Assembly (NCBI GenBank): GCA_024641365.1
Contig: JAHEDF010000118.1
Location: 1 to 9,815, forward strand
DNA from: Planctomycetota bacterium
GTDB lineage: Bacteria; Planctomycetota; UBA11346
Direction of reading: 5' to 3'
DNA: 9,815 bases
Shown here: positions 1-9,815 of the stretch, piece after piece
How the letters are laid out: each line of letters begins with the position of its first letter
Position numbering within the stretch: the stretch's first letter is position 1
Program-made: the position numbers and the translations under genes
The notes under the pieces: generated by a model
What the model was told of the DNA's origin: nothing
Databases searched by the model: none
Seen by the model: only the letters and a program-made list of their open reading frames with translations

Positions 1-249
1 CACCAGCATTGCTGGTTCAAGATGCGGAAAACTATCACAAGTGTCAGTCAATTAGCACGCTTAGATGATTTCAATAATGATGGTGAAGCTGATAATTATG
101 TCAGTGTTAATCGTGATGCACCGGTCTATCCAAAATATAATGATTTCGCTTTTGATTTAATCACCGACCGTGCCGGTAATTTTTATTTTGGTCGTGGTGG
201 TCATGGTGCCACGCCAGATTATCCATTGCTGACCCAAATTAAAAATTAA
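1..249 (+). CDS. 3' end of a PVC-type secreted dehydrogenase / haem-binding protein, probably truncated
   Basis: The reading frame is open from the left edge and ends at TAA 247-249; the true start lies outside the window. The visible part reads ARLDDFNNDGEADNY, then a short variable stretch, then DFAFDLITDRAGNFYFGRGG. This matches, from memory, a beta-propeller segment of large planctomycete/verrucomicrobial proteins annotated as membrane-bound dehydrogenases or PVC-type haem-binding proteins; the DxNxDGEAD part resembles a calcium-binding loop of the propeller. In those proteins several hundred residues, including more propeller blades and often a cytochrome-like CxxCH domain, follow this point. 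Here the frame stops about 10 residues after the FYFGRGG motif, so the gene looks cut short, and a complex inverted repeat begins 38 bp downstream. The residues just before the motif (HQHCWFKMRKTI) are less family-like, so a frameshift is possible there too. Family fairly likely; gene status (short variant or pseudogene) unresolved. Confidence 0.55.
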   Translation, partial: HQHCWFKMRKTITSVSQLARLDDFNNDGEADNYVSVNRDAPVYPKYNDFAFDLITDRAGNFYFGRGGHGATPDYPLLTQIKN

Positions 250-286
250 GAGACACGATAAATGTTGTGCCGTTAGGAGTCTTTGC

Positions 287-510
287 GTCCGGAGGTCCGG
301 AGGTCCGGAAGTCTGATGGGTTGGTAAATGGTCGTAGATCAACGATGGCCTTTTTCGTTACTGCAAAAAGGTGGCACTACGTGCCGAGCAAAAATTACCA
401 ACTTAAAGTGGTGAGCGCAGCGAACACCTTTTTGCAGTCGCAGAACCTAACCCACACAGTACAAATAATTCACAATAATTAAAGACTTCCGGACTTCCGG
501 ACTTCCGGAC
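287..510. repeat. 224-bp composite inverted-repeat element with 8-bp tandem-repeat arms
   Basis: The left arm 287-313 is GTCCGGAG, GTCCGGAG, GTCCGGAA, GTC. The right arm 484-510 is GACTTCCG three times, then GAC. The arms are reverse complements over 27 bp except at two positions, both of which become G-U pairs if the top strand is transcribed, so a + strand RNA could form an uninterrupted 27-bp stem. Each 8-bp unit contains the palindrome TCCGGA, three per arm. The 170-bp interior holds further nested inverted repeats: TGGGTT 317-322 with AACCCA 448-453, and a 14-bp pair listed separately. The element fills the gap between a truncated + strand gene and the end of the - strand helicase, whose stop codon lies only 2 bp past the right arm. 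Neither arm is followed by a T-run, so it is not an ordinary intrinsic terminator. It could be a dispersed palindromic repeat, a non-autonomous mobile element or a structured RNA; the sequence does not decide. Confidence 0.85.
360..438. repeat. Inner 14-bp perfect inverted repeat with GCAC-TAC-GTGC mini-hairpin
   Basis: ACTGCAAAAAGGTG (360-373) and CACCTTTTTGCAGT (425-438) are exact reverse complements, separated by 51 bp. Directly after the left arm, GCAC 374-377 and GTGC 381-384 form a small hairpin with loop TAC. TTGGTAA (321-327), outside the left arm, can pair with TTACCAA (395-401), which lies between the arms, so an alternative fold is possible. Together with the outer arms this gives a nested, cruciform-like layout. 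Confidence 0.75.
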
Positions 511-511
511 C

Positions 512-3500
512 CTAATTAAAAACACTGACGTAACTGACCTGATCTAACGACCACACCGCGCCATCAATAGCAGCTTGTAAGACATTTACTTGCCGTTGTT
601 CTTCTTCAGCTTCTTGTTGCGCTTGTTTTGTTTCTGGATGGTTATCACCAAAACGTTGTGCAGTGGTAATGGCACACGCTTGTGCGGCCGCCAAACCTGG
701 GAGTAAACGATCGTCTAACGCTTTGCGTAAACGAACGCGTTCACTGGTTAAATCAGTGTCCACATATTTTTGACCGGCGTCACAGGCGCGCTGCATTTGT
801 TTTTGCCAACCGATAACACGCTCAGGTTGACCAGCTAATAACGGTCGCGTCCATGCATCACGATTGACAGAACTACTGGCGGCGAGGTCGCCATTTTTCG
901 CACTAAATGGTTGTTTTAATAATTCGAGTACAGCAGCGTCTGTTTCAACAGTGGCGTCATCACTACGCACACAAATTAAGCGCTGTGTTGGTGGAGCGAC
1001 AACAAATAAACGACGTAACACTTCAATGCGAATGTTTGATACTGCGAGTGGCGCTAAATCAACTGCTAGCGAATAGACTGCGCGAATGCCGCTCCACGCT
1101 TTGCCACCATCAGGTGCTTTGCGTCGCCATGCCATGGCTTTGCACCAATCAGAGGCAGTCGCATCAGCAACTAAACGATCTATTAATCGATGTCCAATTC
1201 CAAAATAGGATAAATGTGGGTGTGCGAGTGCGGCATTACGGCTGAAAACGCCTTCTTCAGGTTCGTCGTGATAGCGCGTGCGCATCGACCAGGGTTGCGG
1301 ATGTTCTTCTTTGCGTTTTGCCGATCCGCCCATGGAGCGAATCCAGCGAGCGACAGCGCCGACTGGAACTTCTTCGTCATTGACCGCATTACTTAATTCA
1401 CCAGCTAAAATATACGCGGTCGCATCACTGGAAAATCCATCGTCAGCTTGTGCATCACGTGCTGCCCGTTCACGGGCGACGACGTCAACAATACCTTTTG
1501 TTGCCGCGCGAACGCCCTCTGCGCCACCAGTTAAAGCGGCGGTTAAAGCGGTGGTTTCGACATCGTCAGCAATAAATTCAAGGCCAGACGATGACGCGGT
1601 AAATAATCCAACGGCTTGATCTAAAACCTCACACCACGTCGTATCAATGGCATCAGGATTTTCACAACTAAGAATCCAACTGGGAATATCGCCGTCGCGA
1701 CCAAGGCGATCAACGCGACCGATACGTTGTTCAACGGCAGCAACTGACCACGGCATATCATGATGCACCACGACCGAGACAAATTGGAAATTACGTCCTT
1801 CACCGCCTAATGGATCGCTGACCATAATCGAACAACGAATATCGGATGCAAAGCGGCGAGCTGCATCTTCGCGCGCTAAAGTATCTTGATGAGCACCAAA
1901 GGTCTCAACGGTTTGGTCACCAAATGCTTTACCAAGTGCAACGGCTAATGGTTCAATTGCTAATGCGTGTGTGGTAAATAACAATATTTTTTCGTCAGGG
2001 GAATCTTCCCAGAATTTTTCAATAGCTTTTATTAATTCCTGCAAACGCATAGTTGGCTTTTTGTGGGACTGTTTAAGCCAGGTGGCATTCGCACTGCGCA
2101 GATTTTTCAAAACATCGGCCTCCACCGATGGATCGCAATTACAGGCTGCACTAATAGCGACATGAGTTGCTATTTCATTTTCAGATAAATCAGATCGTAA
2201 TACTTGCTCAAGCGTTTCATTTTTTCCGGCCTGGTCACGATATTCTTTAAATTCTGCCGGATCTTCTAGTACCGTAGCGCGCATTGCTAATAAGCGATCA
2301 GTTACGGCAGGATGTGCAGCGACTGCTAATTCGACTTGCAGAATCCAATGCACTAAACGTGGATTTAATTGTCCAGCAGCAGCTTGCACTAAAGTCATTC
2401 GATAATTTTTCAGCGCATCACGAACGGCAATTTCTGCTTTATCAGGTTTGTACGAAATTATTTCTCTACTGCGCGTCGTTGCATCGAAGGCGCGAATGCC
2501 CGTGGTTTCTGCTAAGCGAGCCAACACACTACGACGATTGCGAATGAGTCGACGATCAAGCTGTAAATATTCTCGCACATACCCTAATACTTTATCGATG
2601 GCTTTGCCATCGGTGCGATAGGCTTCAATATGTTTTTGTAAAATCGGATCGCCTGGGACTGCCGCTAACCAGGCATCACATAAGGCATTTCGATCATTAT
2701 CAGCGATTTCGGCGGTTTGTTTTAATAGGGCGACCACTTTATCATGCGCAGTGAAGCGTGCCTGAAAGCCGTCAATATCATCGGTGTGCCAAATGTGTGG
2801 CTGCAATAATGCTAACAATGCTAAGTACGCGTCAGCGTGTTGGCGTGCAGGCGTTGCGGATAATAATAAAACATGCGGTGTGCTTTTTGAGAGAACGGCA
2901 ATGCGCTTATATAATAAACCGCCCGGTTGCATGCGGTGACATTCATCAACAACAAGCACATCCCATTCCGAGGTCGCTAAACGGAGTGCGTCTTTACCTT
3001 GCAATGATTCGACTGCGCGACTTGATGCGATAACAAATTGTTCATCCACCCAGGGGTTACCTTGATAAGTTAAAATGCGCTCAGCATCTAACATAATAAA
3101 ACGACGACCACCGAAACGGACAAATAATTCTAAAAACCATTGACTGATTAAAGCGCCAGGAACAACAATTAATACGCGTAGCGTAGGTTTAATTGCTAAC
3201 AATGATTGAATAACTAAACCAGCTTCGATGGTTTTTCCCAGTCCCACTTCATCAGCTAATAAAAAGCGCACGTGGCGATCATCTAACATGCGTTGAGCGG
3301 CTAACATTTGGTGCGGCAAGGGCATGACGCGTGCCGCTGCTAAACCAACCACACCACCTGTGTGTTCCCACGCATGATCGCGCCACGCTAATAATTGTTC
3401 ACGCGCACTAATGGTGTTGGGTCCCCATGGCTCGGGCATTTTTGAGCCAACCGATTTTGATTTATGGGGCAATAAATCATTAAATGCAGCAGTAACTAAT

Positions 3501-3859
3501 TGTTCAACGGCGTCGCGTGGTGCGGGCATACCAACAATGGTATCTTCGCGCATGGCGACGGTTTCGTCGCCACAAGTAATAGCATAGACTAATAAACCAC
3601 TAGCGGCATCACGGCCTAATTTTGCAGGGGCAATTATTCCAGCGACCGGTTTTTCTGCTCCGGGCCGATTAACCAAGACACGTGTCCCAGGTAATAAGGC
3701 ATAGCGTTGTACTAAGCGTGTTTCCTGGGTCATCTCCGCGCCAGTGGCGAGGAATTTAATCAGAGTAAATCCACCACGCTCCTCAATTAAGCGCGCGAGG
3801 CCTTCAGATTGGAGATCAACAACGGTTACGAGAGCGCCTTTTGCCATGCGGCTGGGCAT
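512..3859 (-). CDS. RapA-type SNF2 family ATPase/helicase, DpdE/DrmD-like
   Basis: This is a large superfamily 2 DNA translocase. Numbering from the TTG-initiated frame at 3919, motif I is ADEVGLGKT (222-230), motif II is DECH (325-328), motif III is SAT (354-356), motif V is GGEGRNFQF (705-713) and motif VI is QRIGRVDRLGR (731-741). The EGRNFQF plus QRIGRxDRxG pair is typical of the RapA/HepA branch. About 200 residues precede motif I, with a small beta-rich region (LLPGTRVLV, then VAGII) that resembles DpdE, the helicase of 7-deazapurine DNA-modification clusters; DrmD of DISARM is also related. About 390 residues follow motif VI and end in a charged coiled-coil-like stretch (ETKQAQQEAEEEQRQV). 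The start is uncertain. TTG 3919 would sit directly at the predicted transcription start, so ATG 3859 or ATG 3847 (MAKGALV) is preferred; none has a clear Shine-Dalgarno. All ATPase motifs look intact. RapA-type family certain; DpdE-like specificity is inference, and no dpd or DISARM partner is visible. Confidence 0.88.
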   Translation of the reverse strand: MPSRMAKGALVTVVDLQSEGLARLIEERGGFTLIKFLATGAEMTQETRLVQRYALLPGTRVLVNRPGAEKPVAGIIAPAKLGRDAASGLLVYAITCGDETVAMREDTIVGMPAPRDAVEQLVTAAFNDLLPHKSKSVGSKMPEPWGPNTISAREQLLAWRDHAWEHTGGVVGLAAARVMPLPHQMLAAQRMLDDRHVRFLLADEVGLGKTIEAGLVIQSLLAIKPTLRVLIVVPGALISQWFLELFVRFGGRRFIMLDAERILTYQGNPWVDEQFVIASSRAVESLQGKDALRLATSEWDVLVVDECHRMQPGGLLYKRIAVLSKSTPHVLLLSATPARQHADAYLALLALLQPHIWHTDDIDGFQARFTAHDKVVALLKQTAEIADNDRNALCDAWLAAVPGDPILQKHIEAYRTDGKAIDKVLGYVREYLQLDRRLIRNRRSVLARLAETTGIRAFDATTRSREIISYKPDKAEIAVRDALKNYRMTLVQAAAGQLNPRLVHWILQVELAVAAHPAVTDRLLAMRATVLEDPAEFKEYRDQAGKNETLEQVLRSDLSENEIATHVAISAACNCDPSVEADVLKNLRSANATWLKQSHKKPTMRLQELIKAIEKFWEDSPDEKILLFTTHALAIEPLAVALGKAFGDQTVETFGAHQDTLAREDAARRFASDIRCSIMVSDPLGGEGRNFQFVSVVVHHDMPWSVAAVEQRIGRVDRLGRDGDIPSWILSCENPDAIDTTWCEVLDQAVGLFTASSSGLEFIADDVETTALTAALTGGAEGVRAATKGIVDVVARERAARDAQADDGFSSDATAYILAGELSNAVNDEEVPVGAVARWIRSMGGSAKRKEEHPQPWSMRTRYHDEPEEGVFSRNAALAHPHLSYFGIGHRLIDRLVADATASDWCKAMAWRRKAPDGGKAWSGIRAVYSLAVDLAPLAVSNIRIEVLRRLFVVAPPTQRLICVRSDDATVETDAAVLELLKQPFSAKNGDLAASSSVNRDAWTRPLLAGQPERVIGWQKQMQRACDAGQKYVDTDLTSERVRLRKALDDRLLPGLAAAQACAITTAQRFGDNHPETKQAQQEAEEEQRQVNVLQAAIDGAVWSLDQVSYVSVFN

Positions 3860-3926
3860 AGTCTGCCGCAATATGGATTCGTCCAGTGTTGACGCGGTGG
3901 TGATCGTACAGAGACACAAATAGGCG

Positions 3927-9040: not shown

Positions 9041-9056
9041 CACGATAATTATCGTG
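9041..9056. promoter_or_regulatory. 16-bp perfect palindrome, candidate operator of the prepilin operon
   Basis: CACGATAATTATCGTG is fully self-complementary with no spacer, the form expected for a site bound by a dimeric regulator. It lies 47 bp upstream of the ATG of the PilV-like gene. On the minus strand an AT-rich TAAAAT hexamer follows it by 4 bases, so a bound protein could control initiation there. It is too short and lacks the T-run needed for a terminator. No regulator gene is in the window. Confidence 0.4.
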
Positions 9057-9409
9057 TTACATATATGACAGGCTATTAATCCGTGGAGTCGCTTATCCGA
9101 CGGGAGAGTATTTTGAATACCGGACACGGAAGTTTTGCTGCGCGAAAATGTATGTGAACGCCCATTAAAAACACAAGTTTTTTCTATGTAATGGCATAAG
9201 TTGTTATTTTATTAGTAATATTATATTATGTTTTATTGAGGAAAAAATTCTTAATCAATAATAACGCCCACGTACTCATTGCGCTAATTCAGTCGATTAT
9301 CCAAAGAAATTTTATTTTTATATAAACGCCTATAAAAAGGCATTTTCTTCTTGGGTTTTCGTAAAATATAACGTGAAGTAAATCGTTTGTAATCAGAGAA
9401 ACAGCTGTC

Positions 9410-9445
9410 ATCTGCTGAGTAGATAATTTTCCTCAGTAGATTTTT
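9410..9445 (+). terminator. Stem-loop followed by T-run, possible terminator or leader structure
   Basis: ATCTGCTGAG (9410-9419) pairs with CTCAGTAGAT (9432-9441) over 10 bp with one G-U pair and a 12-base loop, and the right arm runs into TTTTT at 9441-9445. This is the form of an intrinsic terminator on the + strand. No + strand gene precedes it, so if real it would end a small RNA or act as an attenuator in the leader of the short ORF that begins 15 bases later. Confidence 0.35.
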
Positions 9446-9459
9446 GAGAGGTAAAACCA

Positions 9460-9564
9460 ATGCCGTTTTTTTATATGACGCACAATTATGTTGATAAATT
9501 TTACACTATATCAAACGTATGTTGCGTTTTCGGTATGAGGACCACAAATCAGAAAATATTTTAG
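9460..9564 (+). CDS. Possible 34-aa small protein, unrecognised
   Basis: ATG 9460 is preceded by GAGAGG (9446-9451) at 8 bases, the best Shine-Dalgarno-like site seen in the window and better than those of the large genes. The product begins MPFFYMTHNYVDKF and ends MRTTNQKIF; stop is TAG 9562-9564. It has two adjacent cysteines (NVCCVF), no clear membrane segment and no motif I know. The stem-loop at 9410-9445 ends directly before the ribosome binding site, so translation or transcription could be controlled by it. At this length in AT-rich DNA it may be chance; the only argument in favour is the spacing and quality of the binding site. Confidence 0.18.
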   Translation: MPFFYMTHNYVDKFYTISNVCCVFGMRTTNQKIF

Positions 9565-9647
9565 CGAGAATAATAACGGAGTTAATCTGCTATGGTTGAT
9601 TCAAAGTCGTTCGCGATCATTTGCGGTATGTTGTGCACAAAACTCAA

Positions 9648-9815
9648 TTAAGGCGACTTACTTAAGGTGCGAGCTTTAGATCGACCATGTTGGTGGGTTC
9701 TAGGAAGTAAGATAGACGAGCGGCTAACAGAAGAGTGTGAGCGAAAAACACGCCTCACTTGCCTAATCTGCTCATTCACATCCTGTTCGATAGGAGCACA
9801 CTGTACGCATACGTG
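9648..9815 (-). CDS. Edge-truncated open frame, doubtful C-terminal fragment
   Basis: Reading leftwards from the right edge, 55 codons are open before TAA (9650-9648). The product starts HVCVQCAPIEQDVNEQIR and ends RTLSKSP; the middle is rich in Arg and Ser. It could be the 3' end of a gene lying to the right, transcribed in the same direction as the prepilin operon, but no family is recognisable and a frame this short can be open by chance. Confidence 0.15.
   Translation of the reverse strand, partial: HVCVQCAPIEQDVNEQIRQVRRVFRSHSSVSRSSILLPRTHQHGRSKARTLSKSP

Follow-up and report, generated by a model that had tools for sequence, protein, structure and literature searches.

The heptanucleotide repeats known as STRR, reportedly described in cyanobacteria by Vioque in 1997, are said to be short tandem repeats lying inside conserved genes; to our knowledge, they are not known to form pairs of arms that face each other across a common core. 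In Xanthomonas, GGGAATC heptamers are repeated in tandem, mostly four times, in arrays that are dispersed and mostly intergenic, and convergent array pairs lie close together in 70 and 75 cases in two species, as set out in the available part of Rehm et al. 2015 (PMC4692102). The P6b stem of the Nostoc tRNA-Leu(UAA) intron uses one or the other of a pair of complementary 7-nt motifs and has undergone repeated class shifts (Kaasalainen et al. 2015, PMC4476775). Finally, the Rickettsia palindromic elements are palindromic repeats of ~150 bp with a conserved peptide, located in frame within genes (PMC10969869, in excerpt).

Here we describe an element at positions 287-510 of the window, by which we mean the whole 9,815-nucleotide stretch of Planctomycetota metagenome DNA that was analysed. 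This segment is very probably a dispersed palindromic DNA repeat. Our best reading is a non-autonomous nested palindromic DNA repeat of the MITE/REPIN-like kind, in which the matched arms are an exchangeable shell. As a whole, the statement that the element belongs to a nested palindromic repeat that is non-coding and dispersed within a single Planctomycetota order, with MITE/REPIN-like spread, shells and drift, has in our estimate a probability of roughly 0.6. The closest architecture is that of the Xanthomonas arrays, which are likewise dispersed, facing arrays of short tandem units; there a single G-rich unit per species has been studied as a quadruplex former, whereas the shared core, arm swap and in-frame mnmG case reported below are not seen in the available portion of PMC4692102. 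The closest behaviour is that of the Nostoc P6b stem, which uses one of two 7-nt units and switches class, but it belongs to a group I intron RNA at a single locus, as opposed to the dozens of scattered copies and the site within a protein-coding gene here (PMC4476775). The Rickettsia elements are the closest in-frame precedent, but as far as the excerpt of PMC10969869 goes they differ from the tandem-unit arms and mostly intergenic core of the present repeat. Dispersed facing palindromes with a variable spacer also recall REP/REPIN and other MITE-like repeats (PMC3733652, PMC3116915, both in part); in contrast to REP/REPIN as defined in the available text of PMC3733652, the arms are tandem 7-/8-bp arrays, there is no GTAG/CGTC tag and no linked Y1 transposase was found. 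None of the papers searched contains TCCGGAAGTCCGGA, and literature searches on Planctomycetota palindromic or heptamer repeats did not show this repeat.

The preliminary description of this locus had proposed a nested palindrome whose 27-bp GTCCGGAR arms face each other across 170 bp and differ only in ways compatible with G-U pairing. These structural points hold (Table 1). The arms depart from complementarity at only two positions, each a G opposite T and therefore a G-U in + strand RNA, and the element is properly called nested, since a further, perfect 14-bp inverted repeat (the central stem) lies between them. The window is unusually rich in arm units, with four matches to TCCGGANNTCCGGA at up to two mismatches against 0.23 expected, a number reached in none of 200 shuffles. 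Folding of positions 270-530 gives -110.8 kcal/mol for the + strand (z -10.5) and -103.8 kcal/mol for the - strand (z -7.7). From outside to inside, the element consists of arms, each a row of about two to six short tandem units that point inward, followed by a basal stem, the central stem and an apical module. The 8-bp unit is free of stop codons in the frames seen (SGSPEVRK one way, SGLPDFRT the other), so the arms could sit inside genes.

Table 1. Features of the element and its neighbours (window coordinates)
Feature	Position	Strand	Sequence and remarks
Left arm	287..313	+	GTCCGGAGGTCCGGAGGTCCGGAAGTC; three GTCCGGAR units + GTC, reading inward
Right arm	484..510	-	GACTTCCGGACTTCCGGACTTCCGGAC; GTCCGGAR unit on the opposite strand, reading inward
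Core	310..487		178 bp, AGTC to GACT; best alignment on the - strand; homologous to cores elsewhere in G305
Central stem, left side	360..373		ACTGCAAAAAGGTG; inverted-repeat search
Central stem, right side	425..438		CACCTTTTTGCAGT; inverted-repeat search
Apical module, second type, left piece	373..385		GGCACTACGTGCC; type common to L140 1517, L141, L143, L464
Apical module, second type, right piece	411..428		GTGAGCGCAGCGAACACC; four places in G305 (matches begin at window 411)
Fragment of longer gene	1..249	+	neighbour, outside element
SNF2/HepA-type helicase gene	512..3919	-	neighbour, outside element

The triple TCCGGA array TCCGGANNTCCGGANNTCCGGA occurs in six of 392 Planctomycetota genomes, while the reversed pattern occurs in none of them. 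Five of the six belong to a single order of 23 genomes, which we reached through a relative of the helicase (L003, a Planctomycetales MAG): G305 with 87 matches, G244 with 200, G211 with 100, G175 with 51 and G130 with 29; G161 has one match, with a TA spacer. G305 is the closest relative, its helicase (76%) being nearest to that of the window among the array-bearing genomes compared. Its 101 longest contigs, each surveyed over the first 20 kb or less (1.158 Mb in all) with a crude ORF caller, yielded 16 arm-paired elements, six of which overlap a crude ORF, and nine leftover arrays. No outward-facing array pairs within 400 bp were present among the loci examined, and a plasmid search gave no match. 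In one element of G175 (L094 1257-1522, contig 23), TCCGGA arms enclose a hairpin of tandem CACAGAG-type units, a repeat within a repeat. Two stretches of viral contigs matched the triple array, but their spacers differ and the parts examined show no facing arms, and a 14-mer scan of viral contigs gave at least scattered single matches; neither was used as evidence.

What recurs is more than the arms. Aligned copies share a core that has AGTC(C/T)TGCGTGATC at either end and a central stem centred on GGCTGCAGAAAGGC; its apical module is of one or the other of two types. A core model based on sequence only, built on 15 cores of which 14 come from G305, gave at least 91 matches at 47 or more distinct places in G305; none appeared among the candidates scored (at most 124 per genome) for the other 22 genomes of the order. 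Copies occur in both orientations, and two on contig 40 are close reverse-complement sisters. The window copy carries the second apical type and is diverged (57% to its nearest copy in a tree of 32 cores). The array distribution and the many homologous cores thus settle in favour of a repeated element the question whether this is a repeat or a unique accident. The copies are dispersed and non-coding and have terminal inverted repeats, as those of a MITE do.

Searching with the core alone brought to light copies with different arms: a single kind of core is flanked in some copies by 8-bp (GTCCGGAA) and in others by 7-bp (GTCCGAT) units. We typed 34 copies, namely the window copy and 33 from the G305 places, the remaining places being mostly partial cores. 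Both arms were 8-bp in 23 copies and 7-bp in ten, none was mixed, and one was unclear on one side (Fisher p 1e-8). Arm type is random on the tree of 32 cores, where it requires nine changes against a shuffled mean of 8.7 (379 of 500 shuffles were as low), and the supported sister cores L256 3662 and L256 7979 have different arms. Each apical type is found with each arm type (8-bp arms: 19 and 4 copies; 7-bp arms: 9 and 1), and the arms also enclose short or unrelated loops. The GTCCGAT triple is limited to two of the 23 genomes of the order, G175 and G305, in a scan whose reversed control gave matches in G175 too (8 and 5, compared with 78 and 66). In four copies (L446, L451, L452, L459) the inverted repeat extends past the 7-bp arms with other sequence, e.g. 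GACTGG / CCAGTC, as though another shell lay outside the arms.

We suggest that copies spread as non-autonomous mobile DNA in a MITE/REPIN-like manner, probably through a hairpin, and that new palindromes may be gained in, or replace, the shells of older ones, which would give arms and core separate histories. Once inserted, a copy would drift largely without selection on pairing. The shell step is the tentative part of this scheme, and we rate it at slightly less than even odds.

The mnmG gene of G305 contains an in-frame element with a tiny loop, which adds about 21 residues compared with solved homologues; in-frame insertion into genes is a trait shared with the Rickettsia palindromic elements. 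The survey covered 15 of 16 mnmG matches in the order (G080 was too short). The same loop is strongly palindromic in four of these 15 genomes (G305, G175, G289 and G222; 0/300 shuffles each) and not clearly palindromic in the other 11. The four palindromic loops use differing units that match between left and right: GTCCGGAA, GTCCGAT, a GTTC-bearing heptamer and a CTCCGTC-like heptamer. Among MnmG proteins in the database, the length of the loop is highly variable, and in P0239 and P0240 the loop at this position reaches 73 and 108 residues and contains long internal repeats (VSQEA...ADSER). In a tree of 73 of the 120 listed proteins, calculated without the loop, loop types, assigned by regular expressions on the peptides, require 16 changes against 23.0 after shuffling (0/200 as low); the starred branches call for at least two changes of the 8-bp type and at least two of the GTCCGAT type. 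The labels on this tree skip P0248, misread the loop of P0259, and cover only part of the loop in P0189 and P0198. Random insertion would not lead one to expect that several lineages have this one mnmG loop occupied, which counts against our reading.

The region upstream of fliF was tried as a second orthologous place and set aside; the gene was found in seven of the 11 genomes searched (not in G175, G289, G222 or G211). G305 and G244 both have 8-bp-arm elements there, with unrelated cores, and the fliF contig of G130 begins within an apparent right arm of another unit. Other palindromes with CGTCCCTACGGGACG units are located upstream of fliF in G188 (L440), and L441 of G130 has a palindrome whose tandem arms are made of GGAGAGG. 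None were seen at this position in G098, G010, G145 and G041.

The strongest rival to an exchangeable shell is pairwise rewriting of the arms in place. Slippage would alter a unit in one arm, and template switching across the quasi-palindrome would copy the change to the opposite arm, so that a site would remain a palindrome even as its unit shifts from 8 to 7 bp and between lineages. This explanation accounts better for mnmG, where relatives differ in matched arms at the same loop, and it gains from the similarity of the two units, from the randomness of arm type on the core tree and from the right arm of L143, in which GTCCGAA and GTCCGGAA units, i.e. 7- and 8-bp, stand together and hint at a change in place. 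Yet it predicts mixed-arm copies, and there are none among the 33 copies typed on both sides. Fine arm variants, moreover, are not clearly mirrored (two mirrored positions; three copies with variants in both arms), and the basal stems show no trace of arm-to-arm copying. On balance we consider rewriting in place rather unlikely. Also doubtful is the broader idea that a genome-wide process sets the arm unit, a lineage-specific 7- or 8-bp unit being written as a matched pair on old palindromes.

No mover was found for the repeat. A REPIN mobilised by a RAYT/Y1 transposase would explain facing arms and dispersed copies, and G305 does have one PF01797 (Y1 transposase) gene. However, PF01797 is present in 20 of the 23 genomes of the order without correlation with the arrays (5/5 genomes with arrays, 15/18 without), which speaks against it as the mover, and no tandem TCCGGA array lies beside the Y1 genes at the 20 Y1 loci examined. 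The arms also lack the GTAG or CGTC tag by which facing REPs make a REPIN, as given in the available part of PMC3733652, and consist instead of tandem octamers or heptamers. A REPIN moved in this way is unlikely. Genes starting with MTW follow three arrays and were considered as a shared neighbour, but had no mutual match in an all-against-all comparison. The only far-facing array pair among the loci examined (L276 560-1043, G130 contig 79) has nine and four units 384 bp apart, with a longest enclosed ORF of 122 residues. A separate 334-residue Y1-type transposase-like ORF in G305 (L300, contig 159) is flanked by TGTAGACA and TGTCTAC, has no TCCGGA array nearby and is possibly the mover of another repeat. 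As the preliminary description had noted, there is no sign of a target-site duplication: over 31 copies the mean was 1.45 against 1.51 permuted (p 0.67), with ends blurred by the variable unit number.

Does the palindrome instead reflect a structured RNA, or an mRNA 3' structure, kept by selection? The fold is very stable on both strands, and 8 of 25 pairs in an RNAalifold model have at least one copy changed on both sides. The central stem also fits slightly better within copies than between them (5.60 vs 5.21 of 8 in 25 of the 34 copies, p 0.039), which is weak evidence for structure. Hairpins kept by selection would be expected to match better inside one copy than across copies, but the basal stems do not, either in a first test (9.81 vs 9.88 of 14, n=16, p 0.64) or with boundaries aligned and L458 and L461 left out from the 34 copies (6.31 vs 6.35 of 10, n=32, p 0.63). 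Of 118 basal-stem mismatches, 70 are neither G-T nor A-C. The RNAalifold covariation term was +0.87, i.e. no gain, for copies not yet oriented, and Rfam returned no family at gathering for window positions 1-1000, mir-8186 appearing below threshold only. Nor does the G-U argument generalise clearly across copies: among 24 with 8-bp arms, the GG spacer is in the left arm only in eight, in the right only in two (A-C on the + strand), in both in three and in neither in 11. The earlier proposal that pairing is preserved over the DNA text is borne out at the level of whole arms, by the absence of mixed copies and by the different matched arms at one mnmG loop, but the selection on RNA that it invoked finds no support in the basal stems, the central stem alone leaning the other way. 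We regard a selected RNA as very unlikely. The element is real and repeated, a variant of a recognised though poorly explained class of repeats, and not a demonstrated RNA.

A bidirectional terminator between convergent genes is more improbable still. The element abuts the helicase gene, whose stop codon (512-514) begins one base past the right arm, but it contains no T-run and so is not the GC hairpin plus T-run of a Rho-independent terminator. The location between two convergent genes given in the preliminary description is correct for the helicase gene on the right, whose homologues carrying an organism name are mostly from Planctomycetota MAGs; the gene on the left is only a fragment, as window positions 48-208 align to the middle of a longer gene in G305. 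At the G305 counterpart only about 9 bp lie between the end of the longer gene and that of the helicase gene, and the element is absent. This is not a clean empty/occupied pair, however, because the left gene of the window is also missing its end. Nor is a convergent setting the rule: the clean intergenic copies in G305, few in number and defined with a crude ORF caller, comprise five divergent, five tandem and no convergent cases (0/10), compared with 137 convergent among 777 gene pairs overall. Thus, with no within-copy co-evolution of basal stems, no target duplication and no concentration at convergent genes, neither a terminator nor a selected RNA is supported. The far end of the window (9049-9815) is AT-rich and has no ORF of 60 residues or more.

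A local tandem-repeat accident would fit the variation of unit number between arms, as slippage would yield, but has a negligible probability given the same arms with homologous cores at dozens of places in G305.

Facing short-unit arrays (Xanthomonas) and stems that switch repeat class (Nostoc) were already known, and they raise the question of how both arms change together. In this order, dozens of copies within a single genome combine one core with two types of arm, and there is a conserved protein loop whose arms differ between relatives. One core with two arm types, together with the variable mnmG loop, makes it testable whether matched arms are inserted together or rewritten in place. 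Palindromic repeats also lengthen MnmG, a conserved enzyme of tRNA modification, by about 20 residues. If a genome-wide process did set the arm unit, complementarity would be inherited while the sequence is replaced, including at the mnmG site, where the reading frame is preserved.
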